Shown here: positions 7,356-47,656 of the stretch, in pieces
How the letters are laid out: every line of letters starts with the position of its first letter
Numbering within the stretch: position 1 is the first letter of the stretch
Origin: Elizabethkingia bruuniana
GTDB lineage: Bacteria > Bacteroidota > Bacteroidia > Flavobacteriales > Weeksellaceae
Reading direction: 5' to 3'
NCBI RefSeq assembly: GCF_002024805.1
Contig: NZ_CP014337.1
Span: 4,092,001 to 4,156,000, forward strand
DNA: 64,000 bases
Position numbers and translations under genes: made by a program
The notes under the pieces: generated by a model
The model's input: the letters and a program-made list of their open reading frames with translations, nothing else
Told to the model about the DNA's origin: nothing
The model's database searches: none

Positions 7356-7373
7356 TCGCATAATTATAACCAA

Positions 7374-7467
7374 GCTTATAAAGAAAGATGGAGGGAACTG
7401 ACCCAATGATATCTTGACAACCTGCTCGATGCAAGGTGTTACATTCAGCCTTTAAGGAAAGATAAGC
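7374..7467 (+). promoter_or_regulatory. SAM-I (S-box) riboswitch
   Basis: The aptamer has the S-box signature in order: P1 GCTTAT (7374-7379) closing with ATAAGC (7462-7467); the conserved GATGGAGGGAACTGACCC segment; a TGATATCTTGACAACC segment where the S-box has TGAAACCCGGCAACC; then GCAAGGTGTTACATTCAGCC, equivalent to AAGGTGCTAATTCC. S-box RNAs bind S-adenosylmethionine and usually turn genes off when SAM is plentiful. Here the RNA lies directly before a terminator and the SusC gene. Confidence 0.93.
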
Positions 7468-7492
7468 AATAGGTATTTTGTATTTATAAATG

Positions 7493-14275: not shown

Positions 14276-15631
14276 TTATTCCTTTGTCCAGCTTGCTTCT
14301 ATTTCTTCCAGTGTTTTGCCTTTAGTCTCAGGAATGCTTTTCCGAATGAATAGAAAGGTGAGTACAGAGATCAGAGTGTATAACCAGAAAGTATAAGCGC
14401 TGCCTATAGATCCTATTAGGATAGGAAAGGTCTGGGATACAAGAAATACAGCCAGCCACAGAAAAAAAGTAGCAATAGACATTGCCGTTGCCCGAGATCT
14501 TGTGGGGAAAATTTCAGCAATAACCACGAATGTAAGCGGGCCAAGCGACATGGCAAAAAAGGCGATATAACCCAGTATTGCAATAAGAACCAGATAACCC
14601 TGCTGTTGTGTATAAAATGCAAGACCTACAATAAAAAGACATATGGTCATGCCAGAAATACCTGAGAGTAATAGCTTTTTTCGTCCCCAAGAGTCTACAT
14701 ATTTTATGGCGACAAGAGTGAAAGCAACATTAATAACACCTACGAGTATGGTTTGTATAAATGCGGAATCCGTACCTGTGCCTGTTGATTTAAAAATCTC
14801 CGGTGCATAATACATTATCGCATTGATCCCAGTAAATTGTGAAAATACAGCTAGAAATATACCGGTAATCAGAGCTTTTTTTAATTTGGGGCCTTTTAGT
14901 GTGGCTAAAGAAAAAGGAGCTTCATCCTTCAGGGATTCATTAATAGAGTTGAGTTCCTTTTGTGCAGCTGTATTACCGTTGATCTGGCTTAGAATAGCCA
15001 AAGCTTCAGATTGTTTCTTTTGACTGGCAAGCCAACGCGGACTTTCAGGTACAGTTAGCAATAACAGTATAAAAATTATGGAAGGAATAACGCCGGAACC
15101 AAACATCCACCGCCATCCTGTAGAAATATTCCAAGCTTCATTGTGTATGCCTGCAATGTATGCGTTTACAAAATAAATAACAAGAATTCCGGTAACAATC
15201 CCAAGCTGAAAAACAGAAATTAATCGACCTCTTACTGAAGCCGGAGCCATTTCGGAAATATACATAGGGGAAAGCATTGACGCAATGCCTATTCCCATTC
15301 CTCCTATAATACGGAACAGAACAAAAACCCATAGGTTAGGAGCTATTGCTGTACCAATAGAAGAAATAGTAAAGAGTACAGCTGACAGCATTAGTATCTT
15401 TTTTCGCCCTGCACAATCACTGAGCTTACCAGAATACATAGCGCCTGCAATGCATCCTAATAATGCGCAGGAGGCGACCCACCCTGTCATAATATCTGAA
15501 AGATTATAAAAGCTGCGCATAAAACCTATAGCGCCCGATATTACAGCGGTATCATAGCCAAATAATAATCCGCCAACAGAAGCCACAAGAGTGGCTTTGT
15601 AAATAATGCCTGAATTAATTGCTGATTGCAT
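14276..15631 (-). CDS. MFS sugar porter (GLUT/XylE-type)
   Basis: A 451-residue inner-membrane sugar:proton symporter with twelve predicted membrane segments. Family motifs are GGLLFGYDTAVISGA in helix 1, DCAGRKKILM after helix 2, VPESPRWLASQ before the central loop, DSWGRKKLLL in the second half and the terminal PETKGKTLEEIE. It is the last gene of the ROK kinase-isomerase-porter run, starting 5 bases after the isomerase stop. The context points to mannose or a related hexose as substrate; the sequence alone does not fix this. Confidence 0.93.
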   Translation of the reverse strand: MQSAINSGIIYKATLVASVGGLLFGYDTAVISGAIGFMRSFYNLSDIMTGWVASCALLGCIAGAMYSGKLSDCAGRKKILMLSAVLFTISSIGTAIAPNLWVFVLFRIIGGMGIGIASMLSPMYISEMAPASVRGRLISVFQLGIVTGILVIYFVNAYIAGIHNEAWNISTGWRWMFGSGVIPSIIFILLLLTVPESPRWLASQKKQSEALAILSQINGNTAAQKELNSINESLKDEAPFSLATLKGPKLKKALITGIFLAVFSQFTGINAIMYYAPEIFKSTGTGTDSAFIQTILVGVINVAFTLVAIKYVDSWGRKKLLLSGISGMTICLFIVGLAFYTQQQGYLVLIAILGYIAFFAMSLGPLTFVVIAEIFPTRSRATAMSIATFFLWLAVFLVSQTFPILIGSIGSAYTFWLYTLISVLTFLFIRKSIPETKGKTLEEIEASWTKE

Positions 15632-15636
15632 ACCGT

Positions 15637-17391
15637 CTATTTTAAAACTTTTTCAGCAATCATATTTGTACGTATGCTTGCTTTTATTGTTGCGCATTCC
15701 TGACCGGTACTTTCTCCATGCGGTGTTATCGTGTAAGTATCAATATTCGCCGGTACTATGAATGTTTCTGCATAATGGATAATATAAGGTTCAAAGCTGT
15801 TGTCAGGGCTTTCTACAATAACTTCTCTGCCTTCTATAAGATTAATGACGTTAACTACGCCTCTGGTATGGTGAACTACCTTTTTAGTAAACCAATGCCT
15901 CCTGGTTTCGATGAAAGATAGAGCATCCAATCCTGTACGTTCTTCCCGCCATCCGTCACCGTCAGAAACAGATTCTGTAAGGTTTAGTATATTCTCTTTT
16001 GTCCACGATGTTGTACGATCCCATTGTATTACGTTTTTACCATGTTCCAAAGATATTGGACGCGGTTTGCCATCAAGTCCCATGCGGCCCCAATCCCATA
16101 GCTTGAATGTGAAAATGTAGGGGGTGGCACTAATTTCTAAAACAACGGTGTTTGCTCCCGAACAATGTACTGTCCCTGCAGGTATGGATACATGATCGTG
16201 TTTATGAACATCCCATTTCTGTACATATTTTTCTGCATCAAAAATTATATTGTCGTTTTGTGCAGCTTCCAGATCTTTCATCATCTCATCGGGATTAATA
16301 TTTTCTTTTAATCCAAGGTACACAAAAGAATCTTCTCCGGCATCTAGTATATAATAGCTTTCATCTTGTGTATAAGACATGCCAAATTTTTCTTTGATAT
16401 ACTCTTTTAGGGGGTGTACCTGTAGGCTGAGGTTACCTCCTTCCATAGTGTCCAGAAAGTCGAAACGGATAGGGAATTCATCACCAAATCCTTTGTATAC
16501 TTGTTTTCCTAATAAAGCTTCCGATTGGAAAAATACCAGATTTACAGATGGTATTTCCACTATCTGATCACCGAACCCTAACAAGAGACTATTTTCTTCC
16601 GGAACACAATCGAATCCCCATGCATAGTTAGGCAGACTTCTGTCCAGATCACAAACTTCTTTCAGCCATTGTCCTCCCCATGGACCGGGGTCAAAAAACG
16701 GAACGACTCTGAATGGACGTTTTATGGTTTCCTGCATAGCATCGTATAAAGCATTGGTACTTATCATTTTTGGCTGATGAGGTTTGGTTGTGTCCAGAAA
16801 GAGTTGGCAGTTGCTTAATATTCGTTTTTTATAACGGTCGCATACGCGCCAGTCTACAAAATATGCATGCTTATATTTATAGGCGAAAGAGTCGGTATAA
16901 TTAGTTTTGCCCAGGTTACAGACAGTATCTTTACGGTAGCGTAATTGTATTTCCCATCGTGGCATGTCTGCATAAATGCAAAGATCTGCCTGTCGTGCTA
17001 TTAACGTAGCTCCGGGGCCGGTAACGATTATAAGATTATTGGTAGCGGCTATACGATTACGAAGGCTGTTTACTTTAGAAATATCAAAATAATTTTCCAG
17101 CTCCAGTGATGTTAAATTACCAAATACAGGGTCGTCTGTTACAAAGGCTTGTACCAGTGCAGAAATTTCGCTTTCCGGTTTCATTGCCTCTATGGTATTT
17201 ATGATTAATTCCGGCTTTAGTAATTCTTGTAATGAAACGTTAATCTCCTCGGTATATACACCGGAATAACATTCAATAGCTATTACCTTAGGTGCGCGTG
17301 TCTCAATTTCCTCTGCAATGTTTTCCCATCCGCTTATACAGTTGTGATTTTGTATTTCGATGACAGGGAATTTATTAAAATTTGATTTCAT
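15637..17391 (-). CDS. Class I mannose-6-phosphate isomerase with an extra N-terminal domain
   Basis: Residues from about 215 to 584 form a cupin-type phosphomannose isomerase that interconverts mannose-6-P and fructose-6-P. Metal-site and core segments are LSLQVHPLKEY near 323, ESYYILDAGEDSFVYLGL and IPAGTVHCSG near 405. The first 210 or so residues (KVIAIECYSGVYTEEI, NNLIIVTGPGATLIARQADLCIYAD) are not part of a standard isomerase of roughly 320-400 residues and resemble a nucleotide-kinase-like alpha/beta fold, but the usual P-loop is not evident. It lies 14 bases after ROK, so product and substrate enzymes are adjacent. The fusion is in frame with no sign of error. Confidence 0.85.
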   Translation of the reverse strand: MKSNFNKFPVIEIQNHNCISGWENIAEEIETRAPKVIAIECYSGVYTEEINVSLQELLKPELIINTIEAMKPESEISALVQAFVTDDPVFGNLTSLELENYFDISKVNSLRNRIAATNNLIIVTGPGATLIARQADLCIYADMPRWEIQLRYRKDTVCNLGKTNYTDSFAYKYKHAYFVDWRVCDRYKKRILSNCQLFLDTTKPHQPKMISTNALYDAMQETIKRPFRVVPFFDPGPWGGQWLKEVCDLDRSLPNYAWGFDCVPEENSLLLGFGDQIVEIPSVNLVFFQSEALLGKQVYKGFGDEFPIRFDFLDTMEGGNLSLQVHPLKEYIKEKFGMSYTQDESYYILDAGEDSFVYLGLKENINPDEMMKDLEAAQNDNIIFDAEKYVQKWDVHKHDHVSIPAGTVHCSGANTVVLEISATPYIFTFKLWDWGRMGLDGKPRPISLEHGKNVIQWDRTTSWTKENILNLTESVSDGDGWREERTGLDALSFIETRRHWFTKKVVHHTRGVVNVINLIEGREVIVESPDNSFEPYIIHYAETFIVPANIDTYTITPHGESTGQECATIKASIRTNMIAEKVLK

Positions 17392-17405: not shown

Positions 17406-18347
17406 TTATCCATTATTTACCACATGGGCGATGCCTAGTAACGCTGCAGTTGCCGGGAATTTCCCTTCCCTGATGTCAACTTTTCCCCAAGGAGTCCACG
17501 CATGAGTTTCAACCTGTTTTCTGATATAGGGAATGATGTAATTGCTGCTTGCCATAATCCCGCCAGTAAGCACCAGTATTTCCGGATCGTAAGCATGGAT
17601 GAGATTGATGGCAGAAGCTGACCATGCCTGTAGGCTCTGGTCTCGCAGATGTATAGCAGTTGCATCTCCTTCTCCGGCCAATCTGAAGATGAGCTCGTAA
17701 TCAATTACCGGAAAATCTGCCAGCCTGCTTTTTGTGAAACCCTTTTCTGATTTTGCAATGTTGGTAATATTCCAGGTAGAAGCTTCTGTTTCTACACATC
17801 CCTTATTTCCGCAGTTACACATCCTGCCTTTATAATTGATAACAAAATGTCCGCCCATTATACCTGCGGTGAAGTGTTTGCCTCTTAGTAATCGACCTTC
17901 TGTGACCGCTGCACTTCCTATTCCTGTACCTAGTGTCATCAGTATTACATTGTCAGCATCTTTTGCGTTTCCATATTTCCATTCTCCGAGAAGAGCGGAG
18001 CGGGCATCGTTTTCTATAAAAAAAGGAATTCCGAATGTTAGTAAGCACCATTCTTCCAAATTTATACCCGGTGCATCACTGAATTTTTTATCCACAGATA
18101 GTATCCTTTTTCTATGGTTATCAACAATTCCTGGTGAAGAAATACCAAGCCCAGATACTCTTGTAATGGGAGTTTCTGTTCTTTCCAATAGCTTATCCAC
18201 AATTTCTTTTATAAGGGGCAGTCTTGGTCTCAGACCTTCTCCTGAATAAGAATCTATAGAAGCTGATGCCAGAATAGTATCTTGATGAACAATTCCAATT
18301 TTTATTTTGGTGCCACCCATGTCTATGGCAATAACTGGTTTTGACAT
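17406..18347 (-). CDS. ROK-family sugar kinase
   Basis: A 313-residue cytoplasmic ROK kinase. The phosphate loop DMGGTKIKIG is at 9-18, the second ATP motif is LGTGIGSAAV, the substrate/metal region ends in GIMGGHFVI and the zinc-binding signature is CNCGNKGC near 176-183. Followed directly by a mannose-6-P isomerase and a sugar porter, it most likely phosphorylates mannose (or glucose/fructose). The 5' part of the gene carries two perfect DnaA boxes and one near-match, and appears to be the parent of decayed copies found upstream. Confidence 0.92.
   Translation of the reverse strand: MSKPVIAIDMGGTKIKIGIVHQDTILASASIDSYSGEGLRPRLPLIKEIVDKLLERTETPITRVSGLGISSPGIVDNHRKRILSVDKKFSDAPGINLEEWCLLTFGIPFFIENDARSALLGEWKYGNAKDADNVILMTLGTGIGSAAVTEGRLLRGKHFTAGIMGGHFVINYKGRMCNCGNKGCVETEASTWNITNIAKSEKGFTKSRLADFPVIDYELIFRLAGEGDATAIHLRDQSLQAWSASAINLIHAYDPEILVLTGGIMASSNYIIPYIRKQVETHAWTPWGKVDIREGKFPATAALLGIAHVVNNG
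18088..18201 (+). repeat. DnaA-box triad A (inside the ROK gene)
   Basis: TTATCCACA at 18088-18096, TTATCAACA (one mismatch) at 18118-18126 and TTATCCACA at 18193-18201. Start-to-start spacing is 30 and 75 bases. In the ROK reading frame the boxes encode IVDK, GIVDN and SVDKK. Confidence 0.85.
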
Positions 18348-18352
18348 TTTTT

Positions 18353-18607
18353 TTAGTTTTTATTTACGGAATAATGCTGTTTTTTATCCACAAAAGGGGC
18401 TGTTTCCACATGCTTATCCACAATATTTGGTGAATAAAAAATAAGCTCCGATCTACTTATACCGAGGATTTTCTGATGCTGGCTCAGTTTATCCACAATT
18501 TCTACTGTATGAGAATTCCAAACTGGATATTTTCTACCGGATATCATGTTCAGATAAGAAACTGGGACTATATTTTTGTCTGAAATTCTCTTTTTGGTTT
18601 TTGCCAT
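18353..18607 (-). CDS. Small ORF of 84 codons, probably a decayed ROK-gene duplicate
   Basis: The frame ends 5 bases before the ROK start and has a purine-rich GAGGTAAAGAAA before its ATG, so it could be translated. However, its residues from about 23 onward align without gaps to ROK residues from about 35 onward: SG...EIVDKL...SP.IVD.H...VDKK fall at identical spacing. I therefore read it as a diverged copy of part of the ROK gene that carries DnaA-box triad B. A segment LGISRSELI looks like a ribbon-helix-helix DNA-binding motif, which is the main argument for a genuine small regulator. Confidence 0.35.
   Translation of the reverse strand: MAKTKKRISDKNIVPVSYLNMISGRKYPVWNSHTVEIVDKLSQHQKILGISRSELIFYSPNIVDKHVETAPFVDKKQHYSVNKN
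18384..18497 (+). repeat. DnaA-box triad B
   Basis: Perfect TTATCCACA at 18384-18392, 18414-18422 and 18489-18497, with the same 30/75 spacing as triad A and 296 bases from it. It lies inside the 84-codon reading frame. Confidence 0.9.
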
Positions 18608-18659
18608 TTTCTTTACCTCTGAAAGTTGCTAATTTTGATATAAGCCATAGCTCTTATTT

Positions 18660-18803
18660 ATACAGCGGAACTTTATATTTTTATCCACAAAAAGAGTTCT
18701 TTTTACATGCTTATCCACAGCATTTGGTTAATAAATATTCTTGAATTATCCCTTTGTTATGGAGGTTTTTATATTTCTTAACAGTTTATCCACAATTTGC
18801 TTT
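18660..18803 (-). pseudogene. Decayed ROK-kinase fragment (second upstream copy)
   Basis: Read leftward in the frame of triad C, the translation begins IVDKLLRNIKTSITKG and continues, through two stop codons, to PNAVDKHVKRTLFVDK. The ROK protein has IVDKLLERTETPITR ... PGIVDNHRKRILSVDK at the same spacing. This is a stop-interrupted remnant of the ROK 5' region, the outermost of three tandem copies. Confidence 0.6.
18681..18794 (+). repeat. DnaA-box triad C
   Basis: Perfect TTATCCACA at 18681-18689, 18711-18719 and 18786-18794, again 30/75 spacing, 297 bases from triad B. Against triad B I count 27/27 identical bases in the boxes and 48/87 between them. Confidence 0.9.
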
Positions 18804-18967
18804 GTATGGTATGATCATATATAAAATTATAAGGTATCGGATAAGTAAATTAGTCTTATGCTACTATATACCTGTACAATTTCGATCTCTTTTATTCACA
18901 CATTGATAGCTTTAATAAGTTTTGATATTATTTCTGATTGTATATAATGCTGTCTGGAATATTTTAT

Positions 18968-21900
18968 TTATGGAATTACCTTTATTTCAATCACATCCAT
19001 GCTATTTAGACTAACTGAATCGTTTATAAATATTTCTTTTCCTGTTTTATTATAAATCAGCTTAGAAGGTTTTAACCTTTCCCATGTAAATGTGGTTGTC
19101 TGCTCTTTTTCATCCGGATTATAAAGTCTTATAATAAAGCTTTGATCGTTCTGAGGAGTTATACTAGTCACCACAATTTTATCATTCTTCATGTGGAAAA
19201 GACTTCCTTTGATATCTGCTTTTTCGATTACAGGAATGGCAATAAGAGGTTGAGTAAACGCGGCTGCATACTTTTCATTCTCCACGGAATTAAAAGTATC
19301 GTGAGGACGGAGTGCGTAGCGGTAATGTACGGGGCCTTCCTGATCTGCTTTGTAGTTGGTATGCCAGTAATTGTTCATCGCATAGCTAAACCAGTTAGTA
19401 GTTCCGAGAGTGCCTTTATCTTTCCATTTCTTATGACTATTATCGATAAGCATTCTTTCATCTATCATTTCTGCAGCTTCCGTTAGCGGTGTTTCTATCA
19501 TCATCCACTGGATTCCTTTCTGCCCGGAAGAAGCATCTACCCAACGGCGGCTATACCAATAATCCATATTAGATCCTGGTAGTTGATCGGTAAGGTATTT
19601 CATAATGCCATAACCGGCATCGGCTGTAATATTTTTGAAACCAGAATTGAACGGAAAACCGAAATGAACAGACTCTTTAGTTCGGACAGGTTTTTTGTCT
19701 ATAATATTCTCTAATAATGCTTCATCACTATCTTTATATAGAGTGATAATTCTTTCCAGTTTGTTAGCTCCGGGAGCATCTGCGGTTAATAAAACCTTTA
19801 CCATTACAGGCCCGTTTTCCAATATTTTTGTCTGTACTTCAGTGTTTGATTTGGCTTCATTGGGATCGGATCCCGGTACATACCAGTAACTGTTCAGTCC
19901 CTGATTTTTAAAACTTCCTGCATAATTAGTGGTACCATTATCTGTAAAATGGGTAATGCTTCCGGTTTTATTATCCCAGGTCAGTGTTATTTTTCCGTTT
20001 GATACACTATTGTTGGTAACTACAAACGGTGTGGTTGCTAATGTTTTATTTTTAATAATAGTATAAACTGCGGAACCTAATGCCGGAATATTCTTAGCCA
20101 TAAATACCATTGTACCATTTTCCAGTTTTTGTAGTGGTATTTTGTTGCCTGCTGCATCTTGGACACTATTGCCTTCTGCTGTCGCAGGAATAGTTGCAAC
20201 TCCGTTACGTGTCCAGGACGAAGTATTGAAAACCTCAATCTTTTTAGATCCCGGATTAGTCAGAGGTTGTAATAAATCTTTTTCCAATTGATTGGCAAGA
20301 GAGTTTCCGTCAAGTGAAAATTGTCTTTTTACCTTCCATTGATCGGTAACAAATGGTAGGTCAGGAGCTGTAATGCTATTGAAAGCTCCCCATGTGTGTT
20401 CATGAAAAAGAATTACATTCCTCCACGCATCATAAAAATGCTGACTGTTGTACAGGCGGGGATTTAGCATAGAATAAAGAGTGGTTAGCTGCTGTAGTTT
20501 CAGTCCGCTGTTTCTGTTTATTCCTTCTTCTTTAGCTGTGGACATTGCACCATCTTCCCAATGTGGACTGATATCGCCTTTTACAACCGGAAGCTGGTCA
20601 CCATATTTTTTTTCAAATACTTCAAACATTTTCTCATTAGTGCTCAGTACAATTTTTGGTGAAGTATATTTTTTATTCCATTCATCTACAAACTTTGATA
20701 TTGATGGATCAATAGGTCCGTTGTCTGATACAATATTGTAGCGCCATTGTACGATATCATATGGGTAATTGGTTCGGGTAAGATCATCAAGGTATTCTGC
20801 AATTTTTTTCTGGCCAGTTTCGAATACCGCTCCGGGATGAATGCCATGCCATGATGAGTAACCTCTTCCTGCAGTCCAGAATAATATTTTTTCTTTTCCG
20901 GAAGGAGATAGCCACCATACGGGTTTATCTCCCCAGTTTTTTACAAAATTTCCAACACGGTCACCCAGGTAAGGATTAGTTTTCCCTAAATAATTGGGAC
21001 CACTGGAGAAATATTTTACACCTGAAGTGGTTAACGCAGGAACTAGAGACCATGCAAACCCCGGAACGTCAGACATCATTGCACTGTTGATCTTAAGGCC
21101 ATACTCCTTCTCCAGCTTCTGTGCGTATTCGGTATAGTGAAATAGCTCTTCCGGCTGGCTAAGTCCTGTCAGTATATTACCATACATAACAGAAAGTCCG
21201 ATTCCTCCATCTTTTACAGCTTTTACAAAAGCCTTTTTATCTTCGGGTGTAGCCTTTTGCATAAAATTCTCTACATCCCATAGCGCTTCTACATTCCATT
21301 TAAAACGAGCCTCTTCAGGAAGATTTCGGGTTTCATCAATCATCCTCAGAGCATCGTAAATATTTTTGGTATGAATCTTTTCCACTTCTGCCTGTAAATG
21401 AGAGTATCCTACATCAGTATGAGAATGATGAATGAAATATAAAGTACGTGGAACAATAGTACCTGCCTGTATAGTTTTGCGCAGAAGTTCTTTTTTTCCT
21501 GAGGTTACGGTTAGTTGTACATTGCCTCCGGTTTGTGAAAGCGTTACCGGAATGTCAAATGTTTTAATACCATCTGGCATTGTAAAAGAAAAACTCTCCT
21601 TGTTGTCGATTTTTGCAGTGATTTTCTCTTCCGGACCGAAATGCAGTGTAGTGAGATTAATTAGCCGTTTACCGTCTTTCAGGATGAAAGGAGTTGCGCT
21701 GGCATCCATTTTTTCCTGGAACGTAAATTTATAAGTCATGAACCAATCCCTGCTGTTTTGTGCCTGTCCTACCAGTTTTAATCGAAGGGGCTTTCCGGGG
21801 GTTACTTTATTTATAGGAACTCTTAGATAGGCAATGCCGTATGAGTCTTTCAGTCCGTCCATTTTTGTCTGGTTAAAAACAAAAGCAGTACTGTCTGCAG

Positions 21901-22306
21901 CTTTGGAAATCCATGTCGGATGCTGGTTGGCAGGGTAGGTGCTAAGAGTTAGTGCTTTTTGATCGTTTATATACAAATCAAAATTACGGACACCACCACT
22001 GCTGCCTGAAGAATGTGATACCAGCCAGTTGAAATATATATACGGGCCTGAATTTTTTTGAGGGACTTTGGCGGTCTCCCATTCTATTGTTTTGGCTCCG
22101 TCCGTTGTTCTGGTGAGCAATGCACGGGTTGCGTGATCCGGAAATGCAGAAAAATAATCAATATTCTCACCGCTTATTTCATTTTCATATCCGTTTATAG
22201 CATTTATATTGCCAAAATACGGAACCTTTTTTTGGGCATAAATAAAATTGCCTGCCATACAGAAGGACATTAGCAAAAGAAAATACCTGTAATACATGAG
22301 CTTCAT
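18968..22306 (-). CDS. Secreted GH38 alpha-mannosidase
   Basis: A 1112-residue exported glycoside hydrolase family 38 protein that would remove alpha-linked mannose, for example from host N-glycans. After a signal peptide (cleaved near FIYAQ) comes a carbohydrate-binding-like beta domain to about 285, then the catalytic domain opening with the zinc motif HHSHTDVGYSH near 290 and the probable nucleophile Asp in MMSDVPGFAWS near 411. The C-terminal half is the beta-sandwich typical of GH38. It starts 55 bases after the GntR stop, so it is probably co-transcribed with the regulator, and it precedes the mannose kinase/isomerase/porter genes. Confidence 0.92.
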   Translation of the reverse strand: MKLMYYRYFLLLMSFCMAGNFIYAQKKVPYFGNINAINGYENEISGENIDYFSAFPDHATRALLTRTTDGAKTIEWETAKVPQKNSGPYIYFNWLVSHSSGSSGGVRNFDLYINDQKALTLSTYPANQHPTWISKAADSTAFVFNQTKMDGLKDSYGIAYLRVPINKVTPGKPLRLKLVGQAQNSRDWFMTYKFTFQEKMDASATPFILKDGKRLINLTTLHFGPEEKITAKIDNKESFSFTMPDGIKTFDIPVTLSQTGGNVQLTVTSGKKELLRKTIQAGTIVPRTLYFIHHSHTDVGYSHLQAEVEKIHTKNIYDALRMIDETRNLPEEARFKWNVEALWDVENFMQKATPEDKKAFVKAVKDGGIGLSVMYGNILTGLSQPEELFHYTEYAQKLEKEYGLKINSAMMSDVPGFAWSLVPALTTSGVKYFSSGPNYLGKTNPYLGDRVGNFVKNWGDKPVWWLSPSGKEKILFWTAGRGYSSWHGIHPGAVFETGQKKIAEYLDDLTRTNYPYDIVQWRYNIVSDNGPIDPSISKFVDEWNKKYTSPKIVLSTNEKMFEVFEKKYGDQLPVVKGDISPHWEDGAMSTAKEEGINRNSGLKLQQLTTLYSMLNPRLYNSQHFYDAWRNVILFHEHTWGAFNSITAPDLPFVTDQWKVKRQFSLDGNSLANQLEKDLLQPLTNPGSKKIEVFNTSSWTRNGVATIPATAEGNSVQDAAGNKIPLQKLENGTMVFMAKNIPALGSAVYTIIKNKTLATTPFVVTNNSVSNGKITLTWDNKTGSITHFTDNGTTNYAGSFKNQGLNSYWYVPGSDPNEAKSNTEVQTKILENGPVMVKVLLTADAPGANKLERIITLYKDSDEALLENIIDKKPVRTKESVHFGFPFNSGFKNITADAGYGIMKYLTDQLPGSNMDYWYSRRWVDASSGQKGIQWMMIETPLTEAAEMIDERMLIDNSHKKWKDKGTLGTTNWFSYAMNNYWHTNYKADQEGPVHYRYALRPHDTFNSVENEKYAAAFTQPLIAIPVIEKADIKGSLFHMKNDKIVVTSITPQNDQSFIIRLYNPDEKEQTTTFTWERLKPSKLIYNKTGKEIFINDSVSLNSMDVIEIKVIP

Positions 22307-22361: not shown

Positions 22362-23123
22362 TCAACTTTCCACAGACTTATTTATATCTATGGTATAGGT
22401 GAATTTGTCAGAACGGTAATAGCCTACATTATATTCTACAGGCTTTCCGTTTATATCATAAACAAAACGTTCTCTTTTTAATAAAGGAAAAGTAGCAGGC
22501 ACTTTTAGCTTTTTCCCTATTACAGCACCAGCATGGCAGGCACTTATGTTTTCGCGTGAGCGGTCTACTATAACTCCGAAATGATCTTGAAGCATGCTGT
22601 ATAATGGCATATCAAAATCATCATTTTTATTGACTCCGATTCTTGGATGAAAATAACTTTCGAAGTAAACAATAGGGTCTCCCGAGTTTTCTCCTTTTAG
22701 TTTGGAGAGCTTGAATATTTTTTTATCTGGCGTAATGCTGAAGAAATTGCAGATTTCTTCATTTGGCTGTATTTCTTCGGTCTTTAATAACTGATTGATA
22801 ACATTGATTCCCTTCTCCTGCATTTCTCTGGTAAAACTATACCAATGGTCTAGTCCGGTTACAAGGCTTTTCTTTTCCGCAACACGTGTACCTACTCCTT
22901 TTTTACGTATAATGAGGCCTTCGTGCTCCAGTTTGTTTGTTGCCTGGCGGATGGTATTACGAGATACCCCCCAAAGGTTAGCTAGATCTACTTCTTTTGG
23001 TAACAAAGCCCCCTTTTTATAAACTTCCATTTTGATTAGTTTGCGAAAAAGTTCTTCTACCTGTACATGTAGAGGCAGTTTGCTGTTGTGATCAATTGTA
23101 AAGTTTTTAGCTAGTATGTTCAT
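22362..23123 (-). CDS. GntR/UTRA-family transcriptional regulator
   Basis: A 253-residue HutC-type regulator. The N-terminal winged helix-turn-helix (about 12-80: PLHVQVEELFRKLI, LANLWGVSRNTIRQAT, EGLIIRKKGVGTRV) is followed by a UTRA ligand-binding domain ending in RERFVYDINGKPVEYNVGYY. The position at the head of the mannosidase and mannose-catabolism genes suggests that it responds to mannose or a phosphorylated derivative. No operator was confidently identified; the upstream gap to the RiPP-like terminator is about 85 bases. Confidence 0.92.
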   Translation of the reverse strand: MNILAKNFTIDHNSKLPLHVQVEELFRKLIKMEVYKKGALLPKEVDLANLWGVSRNTIRQATNKLEHEGLIIRKKGVGTRVAEKKSLVTGLDHWYSFTREMQEKGINVINQLLKTEEIQPNEEICNFFSITPDKKIFKLSKLKGENSGDPIVYFESYFHPRIGVNKNDDFDMPLYSMLQDHFGVIVDRSRENISACHAGAVIGKKLKVPATFPLLKRERFVYDINGKPVEYNVGYYRSDKFTYTIDINKSVES

Positions 23124-25909: not shown

Positions 25910-25937
25910 AAAGCTCTCAACATTTGTTGAGAGCTTT
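25910..25937 (-). terminator. Terminator of the rpsT-tRNA-Glu transcript
   Basis: AAAGCTCTCAAC (25910-25921) pairs with GTTGAGAGCTTT (25926-25937); read leftward it is followed by seven T. It overlaps the encoded CCA end of the tRNA by one base. Confidence 0.85.
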
Positions 25938-26011
25938 GGTAGCCCGTAGGGGAATCGAACCCCTCTTACCAGAATGAAAATCTGAGGTCCTAACCGATAG
26001 ACGAACGGGCC
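25937..26011 (-). tRNA. tRNA-Glu (anticodon TTC), CCA encoded
   Basis: Read on the minus strand: acceptor arm GGCCCGT/ACGGGCT (G1-U72 wobble), anticodon loop TTTTCAT with TTC flanked by TCAGA/TCTGG, and T arm AGGGGTTCGATTCCCCT. Discriminator A and then CCA are encoded (25937-25940). It starts 12 bases after the rpsT stop and is probably released from the same transcript. Confidence 0.95.
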
Positions 26012-26304: not shown

Positions 26305-26348
26305 TAAAAATCTTTTTAATTACCAAAATAATTTTTACAAAAAACTTG

Positions 26349-26420
26349 TAGCCTATAGGGGAATCGAACCCCTGTTGCAAGAATGAAAATCTTGAGTCCT
26401 AACCACTAGACGAATAGGCC
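26349..26420 (-). tRNA. tRNA-Glu (anticodon TTC), CCA not encoded
   Basis: Minus-strand acceptor GGCCTAT/ATAGGCT (again G1-U72), anticodon loop TTTTCAT between CAAGA/TCTTG, T arm identical to the other copy, discriminator A followed by CAA rather than CCA. The acceptor and anticodon stems differ by compensated changes from the copy at 25937-26011, so both look functional. Confidence 0.95.
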
Positions 26421-47501: not shown

Positions 47502-47656
47502 ATAAATTAAAACTATTGATTTGTTTTATTTTGATAGATTAAATCTAACTAAAAGATAAACATTGAAAGTTGCTGTGGATAATTATGAAAAAGTGTGTTA
47601 AATACTTTTAATGATTCTGTAATATTATGTTCATCGTCTTAACAGGAGAGGAAGGT

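Follow-up and report, generated by a model that had tools for sequence, protein, structure and literature searches.

The closest described counterparts of the locus considered here come from E. coli and B. subtilis. The datA site of E. coli is a DnaA-box cluster of ~1 kb that lies off oriC on one replichore at a position conserved among relatives (PMC5295017, PMC4585315), and it also acts via ATP hydrolysis (PMC5295017). In B. subtilis, consensus DnaA boxes are grouped in six clusters (DBCs) outside the origin; their joint removal leads to early initiation, which has been read as titration, and the same review also describes these clusters as having no significant role in initiation (PMC5295017). 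The DARS1 and DARS2 sites of E. coli contain intergenic three-box core units off oriC (PMC4585315 and PMC5742627), and DnaA boxes across the E. coli chromosome show an origin-centred enrichment that has likewise been interpreted as titration (PMC12371093). A narrow search of the open-licence literature, outside which most subscription journals fall, turned up no Bacteroidota site described as titrating DnaA among the papers listed, as judged by their titles and the opening lines of their abstracts.

Herein we put forward a hypothetical function for an array of box-like 9-mers in Elizabethkingia bruuniana. The array lies in a window, meaning the whole 64-kb stretch of DNA that was analysed, which spans positions 4,092,001-4,156,000 of the chromosome, a single contig 4,433,522 bp in length. 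We propose, with somewhat more confidence than doubt, that the array is a cluster of DnaA boxes that lies away from the origin and serves to titrate DnaA. It resembles datA in its approximate size, its location off oriC on one replichore and a position conserved among relatives, it resembles the B. subtilis clusters in that consensus boxes are concentrated outside the origin, and it resembles DARS1 and DARS2 in its intergenic three-box units, a likeness in box number. Unlike datA, the array consists of ten boxes in a single orientation, eight of them perfect, and is derived from a kinase gene, and unlike the six B. subtilis clusters it is one array built of regular three-box units. By analogy, its mode of action likely resembles that of datA or of the B. 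subtilis clusters, and we assign it to neither group.

Table 1. Features of the array, its gene neighborhood and the probable origin (positions refer to the window except where marked as chromosomal).
Feature	Position	Strand	Remarks
Sugar transporter	14276-15631	-	
584-aa protein	15637-17391	-	Without Pfam match
ROK-family kinase gene	17406..18347	-	Pfam PF00480, E 3.1e-48; source of the repeated piece
Triad A	18088..18201	+	TTATCCACA 18088, TTATCAACA 18118, TTATCCACA 18193; within ROK kinase gene
GH38-ROK gap	18348..18967	.	620 bp, ~two extra 297-bp units
84-aa open frame over triad B	18353..18607	-	No Pfam match; judged non-gene
Triad B	18384..18497	+	TTATCCACA 18384, 18414, 18489; gap 5' of ROK gene
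Triad C	18681..18794	+	TTATCCACA 18681, 18711, 18786; same gap as triad B
AT-rich stretch adjoining triad C	18841..18960	.	31 G+C of 120, counted for this stretch by itself
Tenth box, TTATTCACA	18892..18900	+	Not in phase with the 297-bp units
Glycosyl hydrolase 38 (alpha-mannosidase family) gene, upstream	18968..22306	-	Pfam PF01074, PF07748
GntR/UTRA regulator	22362-23123	-	
Probable oriC	3,741,477-3,742,119 (chromosome)		643-bp gap, pgk-like/rpiB-like genes; outside window

The ten boxes of the array occupy 813 bp (Table 1). Eight are perfect copies of TTATCCACA on the + strand and TTATCAACA is the sole near-box within the three triads, which have the same 30/75 bp spacing in every case and follow one another at 296 and 297 bp. 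All of these positions and distances, together with the AT-rich stretch beside triad C, had been given in the original prediction and were reproduced on recounting, to which we add the tenth box, missing from that prediction, whose sequence in both E. miricola and E. occulta is TTATCCACA. The window holds nine perfect TTATCCACA copies, the ninth at 47574 on the opposite strand, while 100 shuffles of the window gave a mean of 0.72 and a maximum of 5, with 0 of 100 reaching nine. Moreover, eight of the 159 copies in the genome fall within 0.7 kb at the array, which is the largest cluster among the 155 places listed, the runner-up having three.

Conservation is concentrated on the boxes themselves. 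Across four aligned species, none of the 54 positions of the intergenic boxes (triads B and C) varies compared with 148 of the 566 other gap positions, six randomly placed 9-mers were all invariant in only 1 of 100,000 draws, and the eight placements of a 30/75 triad that were invariant (of 506) each lie ≤3 bp from triad B or C. The same applies to triad A inside the kinase gene (0/27 box positions versus 17/87 spacer positions), and the distances between boxes differ by no more than 1 bp among the four species. It should be noted that the four species are closely related, with ROK proteins 94-96% identical in the E. miricola, E. occulta and E. sp. YR214 loci, so that the conservation represents few independent changes. 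Selection on the boxes had been predicted from the comparison of triads B and C, in which 27 of 27 box positions but only 48 of 87 spacer positions are identical (15/21 plus 33/66; our count is the same), and the four-species comparison supports it. We rejected gene conversion as an explanation for the identical boxes of B and C, since 39 of the 87 positions in the spacers between them differ. The exact array pattern occurs in 4 of the 99 genomes searched, comprising four of the six from Elizabethkingia and none of the 93 from other relatives. Its absence from two of the six genus genomes implies that not every member of the genus needs it; both are fragmented drafts (2.2 Mb in 390 contigs and 2.7 Mb in 690), and a ROK match was found in neither of them.

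The gap between the alpha-mannosidase and ROK genes provides insight into how the array may have arisen. It measures 619-629 bp in the four Elizabethkingia loci versus 8-207 bp in ten loci of Chryseobacterium, a ten-locus count that leaves out seven distant ROK loci (26-44% identity), and in Elizabethkingia it contains two copies, both diverged, of a portion of the ROK kinase gene. Segments of the gap are 69-70% identical to that gene over 124-132 bp, and pairwise identity of the spacers between units (42, 47 and 48 of 87) exceeds that of all 20,000 shuffles in each comparison (averages 22.7-24.8, peaks 40-43; for B versus C, a mean of 24.0 with 0/20,000 reaching 48). Clear homology is limited to ~150 bp per unit, and hence triplication of the full 297-bp stretch is something we infer from length and spacing. 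A mobile repeat was considered and rejected: with the 620-bp gap as the query against 120 genomes, matches were to its own counterpart in the four carriers and to the ROK gene, and of the remaining 116 genomes four had one gap match each, covering 25-63 query positions. No TTATCCACA box was found in the gap or the ROK gene of the ten Chryseobacterium loci, six of which have one TTATCCACA farther upstream, inside the upstream gene. In all ten the site of the first box encodes SIDKKF, versus SVDKKF, and the three boxes of triad A correspond to V-D-K, V-D-N and V-D-K codons when read on the minus strand. We propose that the ROK gene supplied a piece bearing a near-box and two perfect boxes, which tandem repetition upstream of the gene turned into three units of ~297 bp, that the two extra copies then ceased coding, and that selection kept or perfected their boxes.

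The loss of coding in this scheme is suggested by how the copies have changed. A kinase-like frame across triad B is open in all four species, and the corresponding frame across triad C is open in two of four, being interrupted in the genome of the window by two stops and in E. miricola by one stop plus a frameshift. Spacer changes per codon position are 7/8/7 in triad B and 8/9/11 in triad C (29 sites each), showing no periodicity, unlike the ROK gene with its clear pattern of 13, 3 and 28 (~139 sites each). Copies B and C are therefore most likely non-coding and were rejected as genes, a judgment that follows from the codon-position counts alone given the open frames in four of four and two of four species. 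The 84-aa frame over triad B has an ATG that is GTG in E. miricola and is lost in the other two relatives. These data also bear on a broader explanation, namely that the boxes are a product of chance, as a neutral relic of the kinase repeat, or are conserved because they belong to a translated or structured leader. The copies do stem from coding sequence whose V-D-K codons yield the 9-mer, the kinase-like frame is still open to the extent just given, and the RNA has a predicted fold of -92.4 kcal/mol. Nevertheless, the contrast between invariant boxes and variable surroundings speaks against these readings, the lack of codon periodicity and the interrupted copy C disfavor a peptide, and the fold has a z-score of only -1.26 (10 of 100 shuffles fold equally well), a covariation term of -0.38 and two-sided changes in 1 of 122 pairs. 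With no Rfam family at the array and covariation near zero, we rejected an RNA element, and we regard this whole group of explanations as very unlikely.

The original prediction offered two readings, a replication origin or a DnaA reservoir, of which the first is not supported by the analysis and the second is compatible with it, with DnaA binding as a predicted property. A skew minimum at the locus had been named as a sign of an origin. Instead, cumulative skew over the contiguous 3.30-3.775 Mb region reaches its minimum near 3.73 Mb. Elsewhere skew was sampled in the window and in 20 further 15-kb stretches; it is negative in all eight stretches from 1.76 to 3.30 Mb and positive in all five from 3.52 to 4.30 Mb, among them the window with a mean of +0.070, and six of the other eight stretches are positive, those at 0 and 0.88 Mb being slightly negative. 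Close to the minimum, an inverted pair of boxes, TTATCCACA-CTC-TGTGGATAA at 3,741,722/3,741,734, lies in a 643-bp gap between pgk-like and rpiB-like genes, which were recognised by eye, and with mnmG ~3-5 kb from the pair. This region is matched in all six genus genomes, the weakest match covering 59 query positions in one of them, and the inverted TTATCCACA pair is present in all five that were inspected; the dnaA gene of the genome under study is at 1.556 Mb. We conclude that the gap at 3.742 Mb is the probable oriC. It is similar to the region predicted by Ori-Finder in E. meningoseptica, which is 649 bp long with three TTATCCACA-like boxes and lies away from dnaA (PMC8994065).

The array has dense boxes, an AT-rich stretch and a shallow local dip in skew at 16-22 kb of the window (bins of -0.055, -0.047 and -0.005, among six negative bins of 32 overall), all of which could be expected of a chromosomal origin or a second origin. 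The dip, however, coincides with minus-strand genes, the array is missing from two of six genus genomes where the 3.742-Mb region is matched in six of six, and the published E. meningoseptica prediction resembles the 643-bp region instead (PMC8994065). Taken with the skew minimum near 3.73 Mb and a conserved box pair with origin-type neighbors at 3.742 Mb, this makes an origin at the array most unlikely, and we attach next to no probability to it, although the sampling of most of the chromosome formally leaves room for a second minimum. The orientation of the ribosomal cluster, from which an origin to the left had been argued, agrees with this assignment: the + strand of the window carries RpsL- and FusA-like motifs at ~48.9 and ~50.0 kb, and the probable oriC is ~369 kb to the left, outside the window. 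A distance of 368.7 kb, or ~8% of the chromosome, separates the array from the probable oriC, and the corresponding distances are ~332, 351 and 315 kb in three relatives (one contig each).

Based on these data we now propose a mechanism for the array. DnaA is the likely ligand because the probable oriC has the repeated 9-mer as its conserved box and because the DnaA of the host genome carries the usual helix-turn-helix signature. DnaA most likely binds the array, and titration would be the effect. With ~8% of the chromosome between it and oriC, the array would be duplicated early in each round of replication, and the newly made sites would lower free DnaA and so help prevent re-initiation. By analogy with datA and the B. 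subtilis clusters, a dense cluster of this kind on one arm, replicated early and held by selection, fits titration (PMC5295017, PMC4585315). A related possibility is that the array shifts the nucleotide state of DnaA as datA or DARS sites do, by ATP hydrolysis or ADP release, beyond mere binding. Clustered boxes on one replichore at ~8% of the chromosome from oriC, and at a similar distance in three relatives, would suit such a site as well; against it, datA and DARS2 require IHF sites, and DARS2 also Fis (PMC4585315, PMC5295017), and we consider this reading improbable.

The main rival to titration is local control of transcription, in which DnaA bound to the array represses, pauses or tunes expression of the ROK kinase and later genes and thereby ties sugar use to the level of DnaA. 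The array extends from the region immediately 5' of the ROK gene into the gene itself, amid consecutive minus-strand genes, and it sits in a probable transcription unit; we infer that the genes for the GntR/UTRA regulator, the GH38 enzyme, the ROK kinase, the 584-aa protein (whose second half is, to our eye, isomerase-like) and the transporter form one operon. DnaA is moreover a known transcription factor (PMC4447404). However, sigma-70-like sites in the gap number 7 versus 7.5 expected and terminator-like sites 2 versus 1.4, so that neither a promoter nor a terminator stands out above chance. The promoter-like motif TAnnTTTG, in its exact form, was not found on the coding strand of the gap, and ten boxes within 0.8 kb, three of them intragenic, would be unusual for a promoter switch. 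We view local control as unlikely, if less so than the other alternatives. A connection to metabolism can also be imagined within the titration mechanism. Since some of the boxes precede the ROK gene in a sugar operon and others are within it, transcribing the operon could strip DnaA from the array and set it free, such that sugar supply would raise free DnaA and advance initiation, an extension that we offer as a long shot.

Titration by the array would take place on a chromosome in which the 9-mer is itself unevenly distributed. There are 159 copies of TTATCCACA compared with 42 of the reversed 9-mer used as a control, and 113 of the 151 copies outside the array lie 0.4-1.2 Mb from oriC on both arms, a zone that makes up 36% of the chromosome (binomial p 5e-22). 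For the control, 19 of 42 copies are in the same zone (p 0.26; TTATCCACA versus control, Fisher p 6e-4); these values apply to a zone picked after the data were seen and to one control 9-mer. The array, at 0.37 Mb from oriC, is just outside the zone. The box-rich regions run from ~2.54 to 3.34 Mb and from 4.14 Mb across the end of the record to 0.51 Mb, boxes are sparse near the terminus, and 31 of the 38 boxes inspected (in 20 stretches) fall within stop-free frames that are 171 codons or longer. The uneven spread is reminiscent of E. coli; the difference from the pattern there (PMC12371093) is that here boxes are dense at 0.4-1.2 Mb on either side of oriC and are accompanied by one compact array. 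If the titration reading holds, the array would be a compact and removable candidate for the control of initiation beyond the models built on E. coli and B. subtilis, and would illustrate a route by which such sites are born, in which box-bearing coding DNA is copied, ceases to code and has its boxes kept. Together with the box-rich zones flanking oriC, it would make the titration model testable in another phylum.

Three further observations were made in the course of the analysis. In another genus of the same family, eight of the 11 matches to a triple box show the arrangement TTATCCACA-AC-TTATCCACA-[CT]G-TTATCCACA next to a gene that carries a cysteine-synthase-like motif, and the triple-box matches come from 10 of 197 genomes, all of that single genus. 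We rejected these triple boxes as an oriC, with no Pgk or RpiB motif found nearby, and they are a candidate for a second, different origin-distal cluster or for a DnaA-controlled promoter. Within the window itself, there is a SAM riboswitch at 7373-7468 on the + strand (RF00162, 64.8 bits), and two tRNA-Glu (ttc) genes are located ~0.3 kb apart on the minus strand, at 25937-26011 and 26348-26420.
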